The notes beneath the pieces were generated by a model, which saw only the letters and a list, made by a program, of their open reading frames with translations, had not been told where the DNA came from and did not search any database. From the NCBI RefSeq assembly GCF_019059575.1, contig NW_024882314.1:62001-126000 (forward strand): a DNA stretch of 64,000 nt, read 5' to 3'. This document shows positions 1,280 through 62,692 of the stretch, piece after piece. Source of the DNA: Amphibalanus amphitrite. Taxonomy: Eukaryota; Arthropoda; Thecostraca; Balanomorpha; Balanidae. Made by a program: the position numbers and the translations under genes. Each line of letters begins with the position of its first letter. Position 1 is the first letter of the stretch.

Positions 1280-3488
1280 TCATACGATCATCTTGAAGAG
1301 TGCCATGGAGAGCACCATACCCAGGAACAATACGAAGGCGATGCCGACTCCGACTCCTCCCAGTACAGCGGCGTGTTCCATCACAAACTCCTGTACACGC
1401 TGCTTACAGCCGGCCTGGTAAGAGTCATCTAGCGTGCACGATCCGGGTTCCACCGGTCCCGGGCAGCACGAGTCGGGCAGGGGGCTGACATGGCCCGTCC
1501 AACTGGCAGGCCCGGTTACACCGCAGCACTCCATCTGAGGAAGGGACGGGGGACGAGTCAAGTAAACGGAGGGAGGGCTAGGGGTCGGGTCACACTGAGA
1601 CAATTCATTTGAGGGGAGAGAAAGAGACGGGTAACTGTCTGAGGGACGAAGACTTGGTTACTGGCCACGGAATCTCAGGAAGGAACGAGCCACAATGAAA
1701 CAGATAAAACAAAAATGAAATAAAAAACAATGAAGCATCTGAGTGGAAGAGAAAATTAATGACGGTTTATAAATAAGGCCTCCACACTCCAAAGAGCTCA
1801 TTGGAACGCTGAGTAGCCTCTTATATTTAATAACACGCAGTCTTTGGTCTTTCATTTTGCTATAAGACATTGTCATTGTATGTCGATACTTTAGTGCCCT
1901 GGTCGGTATCAAACCATTTAATCTTTTCCTCTCCAGGTTACCTGTGACTGAGCGGCGTCCCACGCATCCTTGGCCGCCTGGTTGGTCTCGTACTCGTCTT
2001 GCGAGGCCATCATCTGCGCCATGATGGTGTCCTTGACGCGATGTCTGAACACGTAGCTCACGATGCCGCCCACCAGCAGCACCACGAACAGCACTAGCAG
2101 GATGATGAAGTACTGAGAACGTGGACATCGGAACGGGACACAGCGGTCAATGTCAGTCTCGGTCTGAATTAACGATAATATACCTCTGTATACGGTATAC
2201 GATATAGTGTACATAAAGGTTTGGATATGTGGATCGATCCTTACTAAGCGCTCCCCAAGTCACTCCACATGCTTCGTTCGACCTCTACCGTTTCATACTT
2301 AATTCTTTAACTTCTCCTCAGACTTTTCATTCGTCCCCATTCCACGCGTTCGCTGCTTTACCTTTCTAATTGTCCTTTCTTATCCTCCCCACCACCACCC
2401 ATCTAGCCTCATGACCTTGCATGTCTCCTCTCCACCTCCACCCCGTTATCATTTCTTCTTACCGTAAAGAGCATGCATCGGACCTCCTTGATGGCCCCGA
2501 GGCAGCCGAGAAACGATATAAGAGTCACCACCACGCCGGTGGCCACGAAGATGTAGGCTGACGAAGCGTACAGATCGGTCCCCAGGAGCTGTTCGAACTC
2601 CGTCTTGTCAACCACCGTCCATATTCCAATGGCGAGCACTGCGACACCGCCCACCTGTCGAAGAGATAGAGGGGCAGTGAGTGATGGCAGAGTGGGGTGT
2701 GCCAGGGGGTGGAGAGACGAATTTTGGAGAGACGGGGCGAGCCAGTTCTTGTGCACTAACATCATAGATGGCACAGGCGGAGAGTTATGAAGGTAGACCG
2801 AGTGAAATGAAGGTAAGTCGAGCTTTCACTATTATAGTACTCGTGAACAGCCTGTGCAGAATAACTGCATTAATGACATAATTACATCGCATGGTTGATG
2901 ACTGTTTGACATCTATTCACTTGGTTCACGTTTTAGCCATGGGAATCACTGGTGCCTGGTACACCAGGCGCATCGTCCGTGTGCCTGTGGTTGGGTGCAG
3001 GTGCTGCCACCTAGGTCGATCGCTCTGAACTAAAGCTTCCGTACCTGGTTCACAGGTAAGGTCCGTGTCGAGACCGACCTGCGGACTAGACCTTCATTCA
3101 CTAAGAATTCAGTTGTCATGTGAACGTAAACAGATCCAATTTAGGTATGCAAGCTGGGCATTAGGCATGTAGTGTTTGTAACCTCCGTTGCTGGAGCCTC
3201 GTACAACCGTAGCAATGCTAGCGAATTTAACGAAGAGCAACGACGAAAACGGGTCAAACAGGGTAAGCGAGACCTTTTAAACTGATGCCCTCTTCTAATT
3301 TCAGATTCTAATCAATGCGATTTCAGCCCGAAGGACAGTTTCAATTTCATAAGCTACCCATCACCAACTAAAATATGCAAATAAGTCACTTGATTTTCCA
3401 AAGAACTTACCAGTATTAGGAAGTTGGAGAAGAACAGCAGGTATTTTACGCACTGGCCGCATCCCTCCATCTCTTGTCCTTTCCCCAT
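1280..3488 (-). CDS. Tetraspanin, four exons, 231 aa
   Basis: Tetraspanins are four-pass plasma-membrane or endosomal organisers that recruit integrins, receptors and proteases into microdomains. The coding exons on the minus strand are 3411-3488, 2463-2654, 1942-2112 and 1280-1534. All junctions are phase 0, with GT donors and AG acceptors, and they join into one frame of 231 residues. Membrane segment 1 spans the exon 1/2 junction. Segment 2 ends in the family motif GCLGAIKEVRC (residues about 76-86). Segment 3 opens exon 3 (YFIILLVLFVVLLVGGIVSY). The large loop has six cysteines in canonical order: CCG at the start of exon 4, then PDSCC, then two single cysteines. Segment 4 (VLGGVGVGIAFVLFLGMVL) is followed by a short tail. 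The start ATG at 3486-3488 sits just inside an exon whose acceptor is near 3509, so the first exon is probably non-coding and lies upstream. The overall type is CD9/CD151-like, but I cannot name the orthologue. Confidence 0.93.
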
Positions 3489-17562: not shown

Positions 17563-18946
17563 CCGGGAGTTCCTAAATAAACAGTCGAATTATTTTTGCC
17601 TCTAGTGGCGTCACTAACAAAATCACAACAATAAAATTGCACGTGATGATAGCACGTGCAATGCCATTTTATTTCATACCAAAATCAATCACTTTCTATC
17701 ATGCAGCCGTATAGTACAGACATAAAAACAAAAATAGTACATTTCTATTTTGAGACAAAGTCAATCGTTGCAACACAACGTAAGCTACGCCGACACTTAA
17801 AAAGGACCCAAGTGCCATCAAGAACCGTCATTTTAAGTATAGTTGAGAAGTTTTTGGCAAGAGGTAGTGTGGAGAACGTAAAAAAGGGTAAATGTGGCCG
17901 AAAAGGAACCAAGAGGACGCCTCTAAACGCCCAAAGGGCACGAGAAGCCCTCCAGAGGAGCCCACAAAAGTCGCTCAGACGGCTGGGCCAGGAACTGGGC
18001 TGTAGCAAAACCACCGCTCACCGTTTGGCCAGAAACGACGTTCAGCTGTTCCCGTATAAGGTCTCCGTTCACCAAGCACTGTCGAAAGTCGACAAACAGT
18101 CACGGCTTCTTTACAGAGGCTGGTTTTTGAGAAATTGCGAGCAGGACAATGAGTTCCTTCACCGAATCTGGTTCAACGACGAGGCCCATTTTCATATGGA
18201 TGGCCGCGTGAACTCCCAGAATTTTCGATTCTGGTCGACGGAGCCACCCGATTTGGTCGCGGAAGCCCCTCTGCACAGTGTGAAGTGCACAGCCTGGTGT
18301 GCAATGAGCAGCAGTGGCATCATCGGACCTTTCTGGTTTGAGAACGACGCTGGGGAGTCTGTCACCGTCAACGCTCTGCGCTACCAGCAAGTCCTAGCCA
18401 AGTTCTGGACTGCGCTGAACAGGCGGCTGGGTGGAGACAGGCAGCTGATGGACCATCAATGGTTCCAACAAGACGGAGCCTCGGCGCACACGGCCGTTGC
18501 GACTCGAGAATGGCTGCGGAACCGATTCGGTGCGCGGGTTATCTCCCGCAGAGAGGTGCGGACCTGGTCCCCACACTCTTCGGATCTGACCCCACTTGAC
18601 TTCTTTCTCTGGGGTCACCTGAAGTCACAGGTCTACAAAAGCAACCCCAGAACTACAGATGACCTCAAGAGGGCCGTGTCGTCCGCGGTGCGCCGAGTGT
18701 GGCCGGAGATCTGCCGGGCTGCGGTGGAGTCCGCTCGGCGACGCGCAGAGCTGTGTGTGGAGCGAGAGGGGGCTCATCTGGAACATGTCCTCTGTGGCCG
18801 CAAATGAAAAGACAGCAAAAAGAAGATGGTATCACGTGAAATGGCATCGACTATTGTGTATGTTAGAAAGTGATTCGTTTTTGTCATGCCTTCCATGCTG
18901 ATAATATACAGCTTTTAAATTCGACTGTTTATTTAGGAACTCCCGG
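17563..18946 (+). mobile_element. Intact Tc1/mariner transposon
   Basis: The element is 1384 bp. Perfect 29-bp terminal inverted repeats lie at 17563-17591 and 18918-18946, beginning CCGGGAGTTCC, and TA target duplications lie at 17561-17562 and 18947-18948. A single uninterrupted transposase frame fills the interior. Identical termini and an open frame suggest a young, possibly mobile copy. It lies between genes, upstream of the presumed promoter near 19.8 kb. Confidence 0.95.
17701..18807 (+). CDS. Tc1/mariner-family transposase, 368 aa
   Basis: This DDE/D enzyme cuts the element at its terminal repeats and reinserts it at TA. The N-terminal part (residues about 1-110) is a DUF4817-like helix-turn-helix region starting MQPYSTDIKTKIVHFYFE, with a basic GRKGTKRT linker and a second HTH-like SLRRLGQELGCSKTTAHRLA. 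The catalytic triad is visible: D in WFNDEAHFHMDG, D in WFQQDGASAHTA and D in SPHSSDLTPLDFFLWG. The last two aspartates have 36 residues between them, compared with 34 in classic mariner and 37 in maT, so it belongs to a variant DDxD group. I chose the ATG at 17701 because family members start near this motif; an in-frame upstream ATG at 17656 would add 15 residues. No frameshift or stop interrupts it. Confidence 0.93.
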   Translation: MQPYSTDIKTKIVHFYFETKSIVATQRKLRRHLKRTQVPSRTVILSIVEKFLARGSVENVKKGKCGRKGTKRTPLNAQRAREALQRSPQKSLRRLGQELGCSKTTAHRLARNDVQLFPYKVSVHQALSKVDKQSRLLYRGWFLRNCEQDNEFLHRIWFNDEAHFHMDGRVNSQNFRFWSTEPPDLVAEAPLHSVKCTAWCAMSSSGIIGPFWFENDAGESVTVNALRYQQVLAKFWTALNRRLGGDRQLMDHQWFQQDGASAHTAVATREWLRNRFGARVISRREVRTWSPHSSDLTPLDFFLWGHLKSQVYKSNPRTTDDLKRAVSSAVRRVWPEICRAAVESARRRAELCVEREGAHLEHVLCGRK

Positions 18947-29600: not shown

Positions 29601-56349
<26,749 letters not shown>

Positions 56350-57600
56350 GAGCGCCGGTTTAGCGCGAAGTGCTGCTAAAGACTACGCCACTATGACGTG
56401 CCGTTTGCCGACTCGTCTGTTTCCAAAGTAAAAACTCAAGCTGGATGACTTGATGATGCGAGGTGCGCGTAAGAAGTGCGTATTTAGTGCTTGCTGCGCC
56501 CTCGTGAACATTTAAGCATCGGTAAACCGATGTTCGGGTGCATGGAATGACATTTACGAGCTCAGATGTGTTCATAGACAGTTTGCATCAGCTCGGAGAT
56601 GCTCAAGAGCAAACCGGAAGCGCTCCAACAGACATCGGGTCAAGAGTGCTCTGACGGAGACACAGTCTGCTTGGAACCTTTTCAATCAGCCTGGTGGGGA
56701 ATCCATAGCGGGAAATGACCTTCAGAGCAGGGATTCAAACGATCGTTGCGTTCAAGTTTGTCAGGCTTGCTTGTTGTCCCAAGCAAAGGGACACCGAAGT
56801 GACAAACGAGCACATCTAACGTGAAATGTGACAGTATCGCGGATTCGCGAGAGCCCTCTGTGTCTCTACAAATAAGGCGTTTGGTGACGCGACGGAAACA
56901 ATTCTTCACTCTGAGCATTCTTGCCGTGTTCGATGCGGCTCCGTGAGCCTACGTGGACTCTTGAGTGGGGATTGTGTATTATGAGGTGAAAAGGAAATGT
57001 TGCTCACATGCAGTGAGTGTACTGTTACCATCTCAAGTCGTCTTATATGGTGCGTACTGCGTAGTTCACCTGTTACGACTACAACAAATATGTAAGTTAG
57101 TCTTATGAATGAGACGTTGATCGTATTGTATTAGTTTCGTTGTAAATGCATGGGAGATCTGAATGATGATAGACCATTGTCTTAGGAACCAAGCAGGATT
57201 TTTCAGCTTTCCTGTGTAATTTGTGCAGGCTTATTTCAGTAGACGTTGAAGCTATGGACGTTGATAGGAAGATCTTGGTAGCGAGGCACAGTTTTAAAGG
57301 GAAACATTACAATGTTAGTTCCTCTACGTGTCTCTTTCGCTGTTTTGTATCTTGTGATATGCCATTGATGTAGTGAAAATATAAGACGGTGACAATCAAA
57401 TGGAAATTTTCCTTTTTCTCAAACAACGTCTTTATTTATCTTCCCATTTATTTAGCGACCCTTTCACACGACATGTCCCTGTGCGTACTTCCACACAAGA
57501 GTTTAGTCGTTTCTCGCTTGGCGCTTCTTCCAGCCAGGAGAAGGGTCACCACACAGCCGTGTTGATCCGTCTGATCGTTCTTGATCAGCTCACTCACCGT
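56350..57600. other. Convergent intergenic region
   Basis: 3' flank of the plus-strand secreted-protein gene and of the minus-strand tetraspanin-like gene. I saw no AATAAA on the plus strand. On the minus strand AATAAA lies at 57431-57436. Confidence 0.4.
57431..57436 (-). terminator. Candidate poly(A) signal of the tetraspanin-like gene
   Basis: AATAAA on the minus strand, 165 bases beyond the stop codon at 57601-57603, in an AT-rich context. Confidence 0.5.
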
Positions 57601-60600
57601 CTACACGGGAGTGCTGAGTTGGCCGGGAGCGCCCTGCGCGCGCGGCCGGCGCGACTGCTGGTCGGTAATCATGTGCCAGGCAGCACAGATGGTGGTCAGC
57701 TGCAGCAGGCAGGCGAGGAAGGCGCACACCAGCGGGGCCATCATCAGCTCCAGTACCAGCTCCGACTGGTTAAGCTCTCGCTGAAAAACGTCGACCGATG
57801 TAAATGATAAAATCGCCATCATACAGAGATAACACCATTTAAGCAAAGGCACGCCGCATCTTTCGCTTCTAACAGTCCTTTGAGTTAAAAACGTAATACA
57901 TGGCAAGAGGCAATCAGTTTCCTGTTCCCCTCAATGTTTAGGAATTGTAGGTATATCTGTATAGAACGATGAGTTTTTTTTTATAGCACATGTACCTACC
58001 TCTGATACTCTTCGATCTTTCACATTTAAAACAACAAGTAGCCTAAGAAAAATCCAGTGACATGCCTTACCCGCAGTTTGTTCTCGAGCTCTGTGAAGCA
58101 GTGAGTCTGGTTCTTCTCTTCCGGGTGCAGCAGACAGTCTGTGGCAGCGGGCGCCCAGTGGAAAATCACCTCATCGGTTCGGTCGTCCCAATCCTCTCCC
58201 GATTCCTCCCAGTCTGCGTCCGTGTGTCGTCGCTGTCGGGAGGTCTCGTTGAGAGACGAGAGTGTCGTCATGTTGACCTTTTCAGATATTGGTGAGGTGG
58301 GAGGGGATGGGGTATAAGAAGTGGTGTTCTGAAGCAGGACGGAGTGATTGGTAGGCGGCGAAGTCGAGGCAGTTTCGGGGTGGGTGGTTGTTTTTTCGAT
58401 AGCTTGTCTACCCTCGGGCTTAACAGCTTCAGTGGGAGCGGGAGGTTTGGATGAAGAGGAATCTACTCGTGAGGATGCTGATGACTTTGCCGAAGAGCTT
58501 GTTGCATTGATTGCTGGTGCTTTGGTTGACTTCTTTCCAACCTCTGTTGATCCATCTGCTTCACCAGCTGAATCTATCGTTCCTTCAGCTCTAGGGTTTG
58601 TCCCATTACCACCTCCTTGCTGCAACGTCGCATTCACTTCTGTCCCATTTTTCTTTCCACCAACCTCTCCGGCCTCTCCATCAGGCACCGACTCCTCTCC
58701 AGCCCCTCCACTCTTCTCTCTACCGGGCTGTGTAGCTTGGGTCGGCACCTCCCCAGGAGCAGTCAGGATTCCTCCAGGAGCAGTCAGGATGCCTCCGGGG
58801 CCGTCCAGGATCACCACGTCCACCAGCTCCTGTTCCGTCATCGGCTGTGCCAGCAGCGACTCCATCAGCTTCGGCAGATGGTCCAGCTGAGACTTGTTGT
58901 AGACGAGCAGGCCGATGGCGGCCAGCTCCAGGACGGTCGTCACCACCGTCACCACGATGTACTGCCGGGGGATAGAATAGAGTCAATGTGGGCTTGGTGA
59001 ATGGACATTGGACAAACTTGGTTTGCATACAGTGGTTGGTTGAAGCAAGTGCAATAATCGCTTTGAGTGAGCATTTGTGAAGCTATGGGAATTATAAGCA
59101 TCGATGTTTCAAACGTACGCCGAATATGATTTCGATTAAAGTATTAGCAGATTTATGACATTTTTTCTTCATTGTTTCGGAAATCAGAGGGATCGAAACA
59201 GAAAATCGAAATCGAAACCCAAACAGCTATCATAGCTTGTCTCCTGTATGCTTAGGACTAAATAGAACTAGCGGAGATCTGTCCAACTGATGCATCCACC
59301 CTTTCAGAGTGACCTTAGCACTGAACTCAGTCTCACCAGAGCCAGCGGTCCACTGCGTCCGCTGATAGCGCCACCGTAGCCGCCACCAGAGGCCACCACG
59401 AGCAGCACCCCAGCCGCCAGGGTACCCTGGCCTCCGTGACGCAGCTGGGTAAGCAGGTCACTGTCACAGGAGCGTGCCAGGTCGCCCGACGCAGCCGCCA
59501 GGTCAGCAGGCAGCCGGCCAGGTGGAATGTCGCACTGCCAGGCTGTCATCAGCTGACTGCGGAGGGGGAGGGTGGGGTGTTAGGGGGACGATAGGCGGTT
59601 GTCGTAAAAGCTAGAGGCTGCTCAGTGCCCGAGAGGTCGCCGTAAGTCATTTAGTAATAAGATAAATCAAATTGATAGCTTAGGCAATATGATAAAATTG
59701 ATAAAAAGGAGGAATTACGTAAGGCAGGTTCAAGCTTATTTCCAGTGATATTGAGTTTCGCTACCCCAAACATTCCAAGCTACAGCACACCGCTGGATGT
59801 GCTCGCTAGAAGACAGACACCGATACTCAAATCGAACGCGCGCATTTCTGAGCGCGGAACTCACTGCAGCAGCTCCCGTTTGGTGTTGCACTTCCTCACG
59901 ATATCACTGAGGTAGACGGACCGACGTGTGTCGTCTTCCTTACACTCAGACATCATGGCAGAGCTGCCACCCACCACCACAAATCCCAGAATCTGTGAAC
60001 GGGTTGAAAAAGTGGCGACAGATAGGGCACGTCGTGTTATCGTCATTATCCGAAGGTAGGCTAAATCGTTTGTAAGGCTAAATCGCATAGTTTGTTATTC
60101 TTATTTTTTATTTCTGATTGCTTCATAGACTATAGTGAGGCACTGGCCAGCCACCCTGACCGCAAAAAATCGTTATTTTTAAAGCTTACGGAATTGTTAA
60201 AATTGTATGCCAGACACCGTCACATCGCAAAGAAAAGAGTTGAAGTTGAAAATTTGTTACGAGCGAGCGAGCGCAGCGAGCGAAGTGAGTCTTTTCAATA
60301 TAACGGAAAATCTCAGTATGAGCGGCCCGGCCCGGCCCGGCCCGGCCCGGCTTGTAACGCTTTTGAGAGGCTTATATCTCAGCAACCGCTGGACCGATTG
60401 GCCTGCGATCTTTTTTGTTGGGTAGCCCCATCCCTTCTACCCCGTAATTGACTACTTTTGATACATTTCAGTGACCGTCGTGGCACGTGCCACGTGAAAA
60501 GTCAAGGGTGTTCAAGCTGTTTTGCAAAAGTAGTGATTTTGATAGGCTCATATCTCAGCAGCCGCTTGGGCGATTGACTTGCGGTAATTTTTGTAGTGTA

Positions 60601-61387
60601 GTAGCATCCCTTCTACCCAAAATAGGATACTCTCGATGCGTGTGGGTCACCCCCAGTACACGTGCAAAATACAACAATAAGAGGTGCCAAATTTGTTCCC
60701 ATTTCAGTAACTCGGTAATTACTGGGGCGATTTCGCTGAAACTTGGCATACGGGTAGGCACCCACCAGGCAATGCATTCCCATGTGTTGCGGTTAGGGTG
60801 CTACTGCACGTGCATGGGGCGTTTCCAGATCTCGAGAACGGCTGGGCCGATTGCGCTCAAATTTGGTACACGGTTGGGGACCAGTTAGTAGGGTGCCGTG
60901 CAAAAGTCATTTTGGACCCCGTTTGCACGTGCGCACGTGCAGAATGCCGCTTCCAGATCTCAGGAACGGCTGGGCCGATTGCGTTCAAATTTGGCACACC
61001 GCTAGCGACCGGTTAGAAGGGTGCTTTACGCAAGCCCGTTGGAAGCACCCTCTCGCCCTTCCGCACGTGCAGGGCTCACTATCTCGCTCGCTCGTTCTTC
61101 GCCCAAAAGGCGTTTTACTGGTTTTATCCTCGAGCAGTCAGCCCGATGAAGTAACATGGTGATGTCCGCCTAAACAATACTTCAGCTGCACCAGAAATTA
61201 GTATAGTTATTGTAGCTCATGCTTTGCTGAACTGGAATGAAATAGACGTTTTCCAGGGAGAACGTCAACACTCGGGCGGTTCATCACTTCAACTTACCAT
61301 TGTCATCGTCAGTGCGAACAGCAAAAACACTCTGTGCCATGACCACGGATGGTGCTTCTGTGGCTGGCGTGCACGCTCCTCCGCCAT
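57601..61387 (-). CDS. Tetraspanin-like four-pass protein with mucin-like large loop, 502 aa
   Basis: Minus-strand exons are 61298-61387, 59865-59992, 59337-59556, 58071-58961 and 57601-57780. Junction phases are 0, 2, 0 and 0, all GT-AG, giving one frame of 502 residues. Segment 1 spans exons 1/2 (VFLLFALTMTM + ILGFVVVGGS). Segment 2 is GTLAAGVLLVVASGGGYGGA, where SGGGYGGAISGRSG replaces the tetraspanin GCCGAIKES motif. Segment 3 is YIVVTVVTTVLELAAIGLLV and segment 4 MMAPLVCAFLACLLQLTTIC. The first intron and the one before segment 3 match the tetraspanin at 1280-3488 in place and phase. The small loop is long (about 70 residues) with four cysteines. The large loop (about 168-450) is Ser/Thr/Pro/Gly-rich with nine N-X-S/T sequons, GGILTAP repeats and RQRR at about 388-391. 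It lacks CCG and has only two cysteines. It is best called a divergent tetraspanin; function unknown. Confidence 0.85.
60255..61100. repeat. Satellite-like intronic element with five diverged units
   Basis: It lies in intron 1 of the tetraspanin-like gene. A motif of the form TCTCAGGAACGGCTGGGCCGATTGCG recurs near 60375, 60552, 60707, 60829 and 60957, at 120-180 bp spacing. Most units also carry a GCACGTGC-type palindrome (60480-60495, 60658, 60805, 60926-60940, 61063). The ends are inverted GAGCGAGCGAG (about 60262) and CTCGCTCGCTC (about 61083). It is probably a mobile or satellite repeat, and the superfamily is unknown. Confidence 0.6.
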
Positions 61388-61790
61388 CGCTGCACAAATA
61401 AACTCTTCAAACTTGACACAAACTAGCTTCTTCACGCGGATAGTTCAAGAAGTCACAAAGGTTCAAAATCACCGGTTCAATCACACAAAAATCAACTTTC
61501 AATTCCCTTCTCGATCGTTTACTTTACCTTCATCACTTCTTTGTACAACAACCCAAAACAAAACACACGGACACCCCCAAACACAGCAGAGCGTCCCGTC
61601 CGCAGCCCGCCGTCCGAGTCAGGTCAGGGACCTCTGACCGGTCACCGGGCCACGCTGTGCCCTGAGGCGATCCGGGCGGTTCAAGGTCAGCTGATAACAC
61701 TCGGGTAGCAACAGACCACACCGAATCGCTCCTTGGGGTGGCCGTTCGGAGGAGGTGGCCGCGGGGCATGCAGCAGTGAGCGTTCCTGAA
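61388..61790 (-). promoter_or_regulatory. GC-rich 5' region of the tetraspanin-like gene
   Basis: Sequence upstream of the ATG at 61385-61387 is AT-rich for about 180 bases, then GC-rich at 61570-61785. A minus-strand acceptor-like TTGTAATTCAG lies near 61783. It probably contains 5' untranslated sequence or the promoter. No TATA box is obvious. Confidence 0.35.
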
Positions 61791-62335
61791 TTACAAAAAA
61801 AAAAAATAGCAATGCAAGTTTAAAAAATGAAGCTCACAGAATCTAATGATAAGCAACTTACAAGAATTTAAAATAATATTATCAAGAAGTGCCACAGCTT
61901 GTGATGCGGTCTCAAAATAAGTGCCCTCTATTTACCTCCCCCGAACGTCCACCCTCCTTAGGTCTGCTAAGAACTGGTTCATGAAGCGGCTTTTTGTCCC
62001 GTGATGTTTATCTGAATTATGAATCACTTTCTGGCTTCTGATTTACATTTGTATGTTTTTTTTTTGTTTTTTTTCCCTGAGTAAGTTTTTGTAACGTTTG
62101 GATAATACCGTTGATAAATCGCTGTTCGTCACATGGGCCAGATAGTGTTTGTCTTTTCATTGTGTCTTTTAAGTAAGAAATAATACATGGATATGAAAGC
62201 GTCCAATTAAATAAATTTCTTCGATCAATTTATTATCTCAGATAGCCCTTTTTGCTGGATAACAACGGCTCCAAAATTATAATAACGAATGCGAATAAAT
62301 CGACACATTCCCTAGTAAAACTAGTTGCTGCAACA
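61791..62335. other. AT-rich spacer
   Basis: AT-rich sequence with T-runs. No gene or bounded element is seen. Confidence 0.3.
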
Positions 62336-62692
62336 GTCGATAGATGTCAGCACCCTCCGACCACTGCCAGCTCTAAGGAACACTGACCAAAGACTCAGTA
62401 TCTCTCTTTGCCGATAGATGTCAGCAGCATCTCGGCGGCGCCTCGGCCCGAAGCCGTGCGAGCGGCACGATCAGCTGGAAGCGGCGGGGTGGTCGCCGGT
62501 CGGCCGTGGGGGGTTGCCGGTCGGCCGGCCGGGCAGTGTCGCGTGGGAGCCCGCGGTGTGTGTTTTGTGTGGTGGTTGTGGAGGGACTGTGGGACTGAAT
62601 GTGGTGACACTGACAGATTGCGCGGTTGACTGTGTGCTAACAACGGTCGTACGTCAGACGGGGTCCTCAACGTGACTGCATTTTCAACACGG
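62336..62692 (+). promoter_or_regulatory. GC-rich promoter or first exon candidate, plus strand
   Basis: A CpG-rich block ends in a strong donor, ACACGG|GTGAGT, at 62692/62693. The sequence CGATAGATGTCAGCA is directly repeated 74 bp apart (from about 62338 and 62412). Overlapping open frames have compositions typical of GC-rich noise. It may be the first exon of a gene continuing beyond the window. Confidence 0.35.

Follow-up and report, generated by a model that had tools for sequence, protein, structure and literature searches.

Tetraspanins are common four-pass membrane proteins that are recognised largely by their disulfide-bonded CCG loop. A minus-strand gene in the window, the whole stretch of 64,000 nucleotides of Amphibalanus amphitrite DNA analysed here, had been described from its sequence as encoding a tetraspanin-like protein in which the large extracellular loop lacks CCG and carries a mucin-like, furin-cleavable insertion that might be shed. 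The locus raises the question of whether a protein without this loop signature can still be assigned to the tetraspanins, and of what its unusual large loop might do. We propose, with a probability of roughly 60%, that it is a member of the tetraspanin superfamily which is without the CCG disulfide core and carries a disordered, glycosylated large loop as a surface glycan brush.

Results

Five GT-AG coding exons on the minus strand at 57601-61387, with intron phases 0, 2, 0 and 0, give a protein of 502 residues. The open frame and the splice signals are plain in the DNA, and the five exons are predicted from them to be spliced into one coding sequence. Coding exon 1 (61298..61387) encodes residues 1-30, with the start codon, the predicted cytosolic N-terminus and the first half of TM1, and ends in phase 0 at the donor ATG|GTAAGT. 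The remainder of TM1 and the start of the small extracellular loop, with Cys 47 and Cys 65, are encoded by coding exon 2 (59865..59992), which ends in phase 2 at the donor GCA|GTGAGT, and coding exon 3 (59337..59556) completes the small loop, with Cys 81 and Cys 103, and continues through TM2 (approximately 59361-59423) into the predicted cytosolic turn GRSGPLAL. Coding exon 4, which the original prediction had placed correctly at 58071..58961, encodes residues 147-443, that is, TM3 and almost all of the large extracellular loop, and has phase 0 at both ends, with the borders CGGCAG|TACATC and CTGCGG|GTAAGG. TM3 (58899..58961, approximately residues 147-167) starts exactly at the tetraspanin-type phase-0 intron and is followed within the exon by about 276 putatively extracellular residues, close to the 270 estimated previously. 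Coding exon 5 (57601..57780) encodes the end of the loop with the sequon N447, TM4 (approximately 57691-57753), the predicted cytosolic tail and the stop codon, and two AATAAA polyadenylation signals on the same strand lie 3' of the stop (57431..57452, with first bases at 57452 and 57436).

A profile search had been named as a check on family membership. Pfam Tetraspanin was the sole match of the 502-residue protein at E < 0.1 (E = 3.2e-6, residues 117-173, covering TM2-TM3), although its score of 27.4 bits lies below the curated cut-off of 32.1 bits. The other Pfam matches of the full protein (FxsA 0.14, DHHC 0.18, SOG2 1.7) are at chance level, in searches in which the HMMER filters discard most matches above E 0.1. 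Residues 1-185 alone scored 24.4 bits, and the Tetraspanin match was absent when either the C-terminal 95 residues or exon 4 was scanned alone against Pfam, so the profile signal sits in TM2-TM3. A core from which the loops had been deleted was tried as an improved query and rejected; it scored 24.0 bits, with no gain, and its match covered nearly the whole profile. Nine controls made from residues 1-205, one reversed and eight locally shuffled, gave no Tetraspanin match (0/9), and a phmmer search of the full protein against the PDB returned no match up to E = 10. Kyte-Doolittle hydropathy gives four hydrophobic segments in tetraspanin order; TM2 is weak (1.43), and residues 192-212 are as hydrophobic (1.44) and could form a fifth membrane segment.

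The cysteines are distributed as previously counted, with four in the abnormally long small loop of about 77 residues; the large loop, of about 285 residues, has no CCG and only two cysteines, Cys 422 and Cys 434. As excerpted, PMC6058033 gives CCG together with four or more large-loop cysteines as the tetraspanin criterion, and the Entamoeba survey of PMC6895871 dropped one candidate partly for lacking CCG. Published loop lengths, in the available part of PMC2650405, are 13-31 residues for the small loop and 69-132 for the large, and both loops here lie far outside these ranges. Because the profile score is under the cut-off, the large loop has neither CCG nor as many as four cysteines, and the loop lengths do not agree, we call this a divergent tetraspanin-superfamily protein and not a regular member.

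The window also holds a canonical CCG tetraspanin gene (1280-3488, minus strand), about 54 kb from the divergent gene and on the same strand, which served as a control. It has four exons with all introns in phase 0, encodes 231 residues, scores 181.1 bits to Pfam Tetraspanin, and has Tetraspanin-7 as its best sequence relative in the PDB (E 5.6e-28); the cysteine pattern of its large loop, CC-CC-C-C, is that of the CD63-like group in the excerpted text of PMC2650405. The TM2-TM3 introns of the two genes coincide, L146|Y147 in phase 0 against the canonical T90|Y91 in phase 0, within the gap-free part of the BLAST alignment, and among all ungapped registers of residues 119-166 against the canonical protein the one that matches the introns scores best (28, the next being 18). 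For TM1, two registers of nearly equal score (15 and 16) put the introns, both in phase 0, no more than one residue apart, in a segment where similarity is non-specific, since registers elsewhere score 17, 15, 14 and 14. Intron positions are in this way shared with one canonical gene, exactly at TM2-TM3 and within one residue in TM1. The proteins themselves align with a BLAST E of 0.019 (one-sequence search, composition correction off), and 57 of 2,000 shuffles of residues 116-180 matched the canonical protein equally well. The passages of PMC2650405 that we cite describe ancestral tetraspanin introns as all in phase 0 and the small loop as the place where new introns arise, often out of phase, a pattern of intron gain which the additional phase-2 small-loop intron of this gene fits.

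Judged from sequence, the 502-residue protein is probably a divergent tetraspanin, a membership that rests on a sub-threshold profile match with clean controls and on introns shared with one canonical gene. The predicted tetraspanin scaffold is upheld to that extent, and by the order of the hydrophobic segments, with the reservation that the profile score is below threshold. Like canonical tetraspanins (PF00335), the protein has four putative membrane segments, a short TM2-TM3 turn, G-x-x-G-A after TM2, and phase-0 introns both within TM1 and ahead of TM3. In the alignment it has a Glu in TM3, as CD9 does but the canonical gene of the window does not. It differs from canonical tetraspanins in the missing CCG, in the number of large-loop cysteines (two, against four or more), in the lengths of both loops and in the additional small-loop intron.

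The large loop (residues 168-451) contains 11 N-glycosylation sequons against 2.6 expected from its composition (0/20,000 shuffles), so that composition alone is no explanation, and selection for glycosylation sites would be one. The nine sequons originally counted in exon 4 are present, but N168, which adjoins TM3, brings the exon to ten, the eleventh being N447 in exon 5; the more general claim of a long glycoprotein-like insertion without CCG is supported. The loop falls into four parts. Residues 168-200 (58800..58898) are probably helical and form a helix-A-like stretch after TM3. The low-complexity part that follows (58227..58799, residues 201-391, 8 sequons) had been described as a single Ser/Thr/Pro/Gly-rich region, and both enrichments are real but belong to two blocks, one Gly-rich (residues 201-283; 25% G, 13% S/T) and one Ser/Thr/Pro-rich (residues 284-391, about 108 residues; 37% S/T, 11% P). 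The fourth part, residues 392-452, is acidic and holds both cysteines; its portion in exon 4 (58071..58226, residues 392-443) consists of an acidic stretch followed by Cys 422, Cys 434 and a helix-E-like stretch. The GGILTAP repeats noted previously are two tandem copies at residues 202-215, encoded within a 21-bp tandem repeat (58753..58811, minus strand; 2.8 copies, 87% match).

Over a long stretch of 100 residues, mucin-type PTS domains reach approximately 40% Ser/Thr or higher, with Pro at 5% or above. The best 100-residue window of the loop has 38% Ser/Thr and 12% Pro, and the best 80-residue window has 40% Ser/Thr. The term mucin-like fits only the block of about 108 residues and is weak as a description of the loop, in which the sequons are the statistically strong feature. 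Membrane mucins likewise have an extracellular stretch rich in Ser/Thr/Pro and sequons, but they are single-pass proteins with long tandem repeats, whereas the stretch here is short and lies in a loop that would be tied at both ends to membrane helices.

AlphaFold, run on exon 4 alone as a single sequence, predicted helices at residues 148-172, 175-183, 404-424 and 431-442 and none from residue 184 to 403, with pLDDT mostly below 50 over residues 201-391. A single-sequence model with a mean pLDDT of 49 cannot show that the loop is disordered, and the predicted arrangement fits a tetraspanin stalk, made of helices A and E, on which the head has been replaced. Codon usage also sets the insertion apart: residues 201-391 (58227-58799, minus strand) have a GC3 of 0.43, compared with 0.77 for the remaining coding sequence. 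The shift persists with amino acids controlled (0/5,000 shuffles) and suggests that these codons evolved under another regime. The insertion is perhaps a younger or less constrained piece of the gene. An origin of exon 4 by copying from elsewhere in the window was considered and rejected, the search having given just two short, weak matches, one of 28 bases and one of 20, each with E = 0.16.

The RQRR motif (58227..58238, residues 388-391), a possible proprotein convertase site, lies 52 residues before the exon end as originally described, and is the one strict R-x-[KR]-R motif in the translated protein. Such a motif occurs in approximately 2.6% of shuffled large loops and in 6.7% of shuffles of the large and small loops together, so RQRR alone proves little; of the furin-cleavable loop predicted earlier, the strict site stands but argues weakly for processing. 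Cleavage at RQRR itself is possible. Shedding, in contrast, is not supported, because the loop is predicted to be joined to both TM3 and TM4 and one cut would leave two anchored chains, the S/T-rich arm staying on TM3 and a remainder of 111 residues on TM4 after a cut at R391. Release would require a second cut, and the protein has no second R-x-[KR]-R, so that this part of the original prediction fails.

Discussion

In the reading that we favour, the CCG disulfide core of the recognition head in the large loop has been lost, while the four-helix membrane bundle would have been kept and the two helices rising from TM3 and TM4 probably so. Between those helices there would be approximately 190-220 residues of disordered chain, N-glycosylated and probably also O-glycosylated. 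The protein would most likely be made in the secretory pathway and, like other tetraspanins, may cluster in membrane domains via its transmembrane helices. Its loop would be displayed as a hydrated brush of glycans and would add to the surface coat or space membranes. Docking of partners through a folded head would not be expected. Departures from CCG have a partial parallel in the bed bug 'N-3' tetraspanins, arthropod tetraspanins of which some carry CCS instead of CCG in the portion of PMC11824892 available; a long glycosylated insertion is not described for them in that portion.

The sub-threshold Pfam score, its confinement to the region around TM2-TM3, the missing CCG and the long small loop with four cysteines would also suit a protein of another four-pass family, whether L6, claudin-like or unclassified, that resembles tetraspanins in TM2-TM3 only. 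The loop-free core drew a match (E = 0.27) to Clc-like, a claudin-related family. As far as the extract of PMC7461813 describes them, L6 or TM4SF1-like proteins also have four passes and a larger second extracellular loop; however, the divergent protein has no listed Pfam L6 match, neither L6 nor claudin families appear among the Pfam matches of the full protein up to E = 10, and two introns match those of the canonical gene of the window in phase and place. We consider such an origin unlikely. A fault in the gene model, in which the insertion of exon 4 would in part be intronic (retained or alternative) or the exon chain would mix two genes, with a canonical large-loop exon lying elsewhere, is very improbable. 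In its favour are the GC3 shift of the insertion, the best GT within exon 4, which scores 3.53 in an approximate donor matrix where the four modelled donors score 6.79, 1.75, 4.55 and 5.14, so that this internal GT outscores one of them, and one acceptor-like CCTCCCGACAG at the RQRR codons. Against it, the coding frame of exon 4 has no stop in 297 codons, against 12 and 11 in the remaining forward frames, and none of 5,000 first-order Markov simulations built from exon 4 was free of stops, which places the open frame beyond chance. No GTRAG donor was found within exon 4, which together with the stop-free frame led us to judge a retained intron there unlikely. The sequon excess sits in the exon's reading frame, and the idea that a CCG exon lies hidden in an intron or flank was rejected, since CCG occurs in none of the three minus-strand frames of 57000-62500, where all 7 CC[GAS] matches are CCS.

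The convertase motif allows two further readings. A furin-like cut after RQRR might open the loop, leaving a TM1-3 chain with a free, glycosylated arm at its end and a TM4 chain that would stay alongside by helix packing. The strict R-x-R-R closes the S/T-rich block, has no structure predicted around it and is followed by a turn to acidic composition, points in favour of such a two-chain tetraspanin, but the frequency of the motif in shuffled loops argues for chance, and no tetraspanin cut in this way was recognised among the matches listed from the open-access literature, as excerpted; we regard this processing as improbable. The same excerpted matches yielded no recognised tetraspanin with a mucin-like large loop. 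More speculatively, and in our estimate improbably, a tetraspanin may have turned into a membrane mucin-like glycoprotein, its head exchanged for a glycan brush in which a convertase makes a single nick. The product would be a four-pass protein of two chains, and a membrane organiser would thereby carry surface coat and not partner proteins.

If the preferred reading of a tetraspanin-superfamily brush protein is true, the roles of the membrane helices in clustering and curvature would be separable from the role of the head in partner choice. Architectures of this kind would also be overlooked by profile searches at curated cut-offs, as would have happened with the score obtained here.

Other features of the window

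Two long ORFs at 52440-56346 (plus strand), perhaps exons of one gene, are convergent with the tetraspanin-like gene and lie just past its 3' end. The ORF at 52440-53675 (plus strand) matches DUF4758, a putative sperm flagellar membrane protein (E 1.6e-9) of an insect-centred family, and that at 54307-56346 (plus strand) has no Pfam match and contains QQYQD-type 21-bp tandem repeats at 54729-54854. An open transposase-like frame of 384 residues at 17653-18804 (plus strand) has a DUF4817 helix-turn-helix match (E 9e-12) and reaches DDE_3 at E 0.016 only, below the cut-off of that family. The ORF at 48674-49258 (minus strand) gave a sub-threshold Rubi_NSP_C match over 31 residues (19.8 bits against 25.4, E 0.00086) that is most likely due to chance. 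No RNA family reached its gathering threshold in the window. A CT dinucleotide array of approximately 147 copies occupies 30695-30987 and probably causes the strong local skew there. Within intron 1 of the tetraspanin-like gene, at 60400-61060, inspection by eye showed a motif resembling CAATCGGCCCAGCCGTT...GAGAT in several diverged copies, which probably represent an interspersed repeat.
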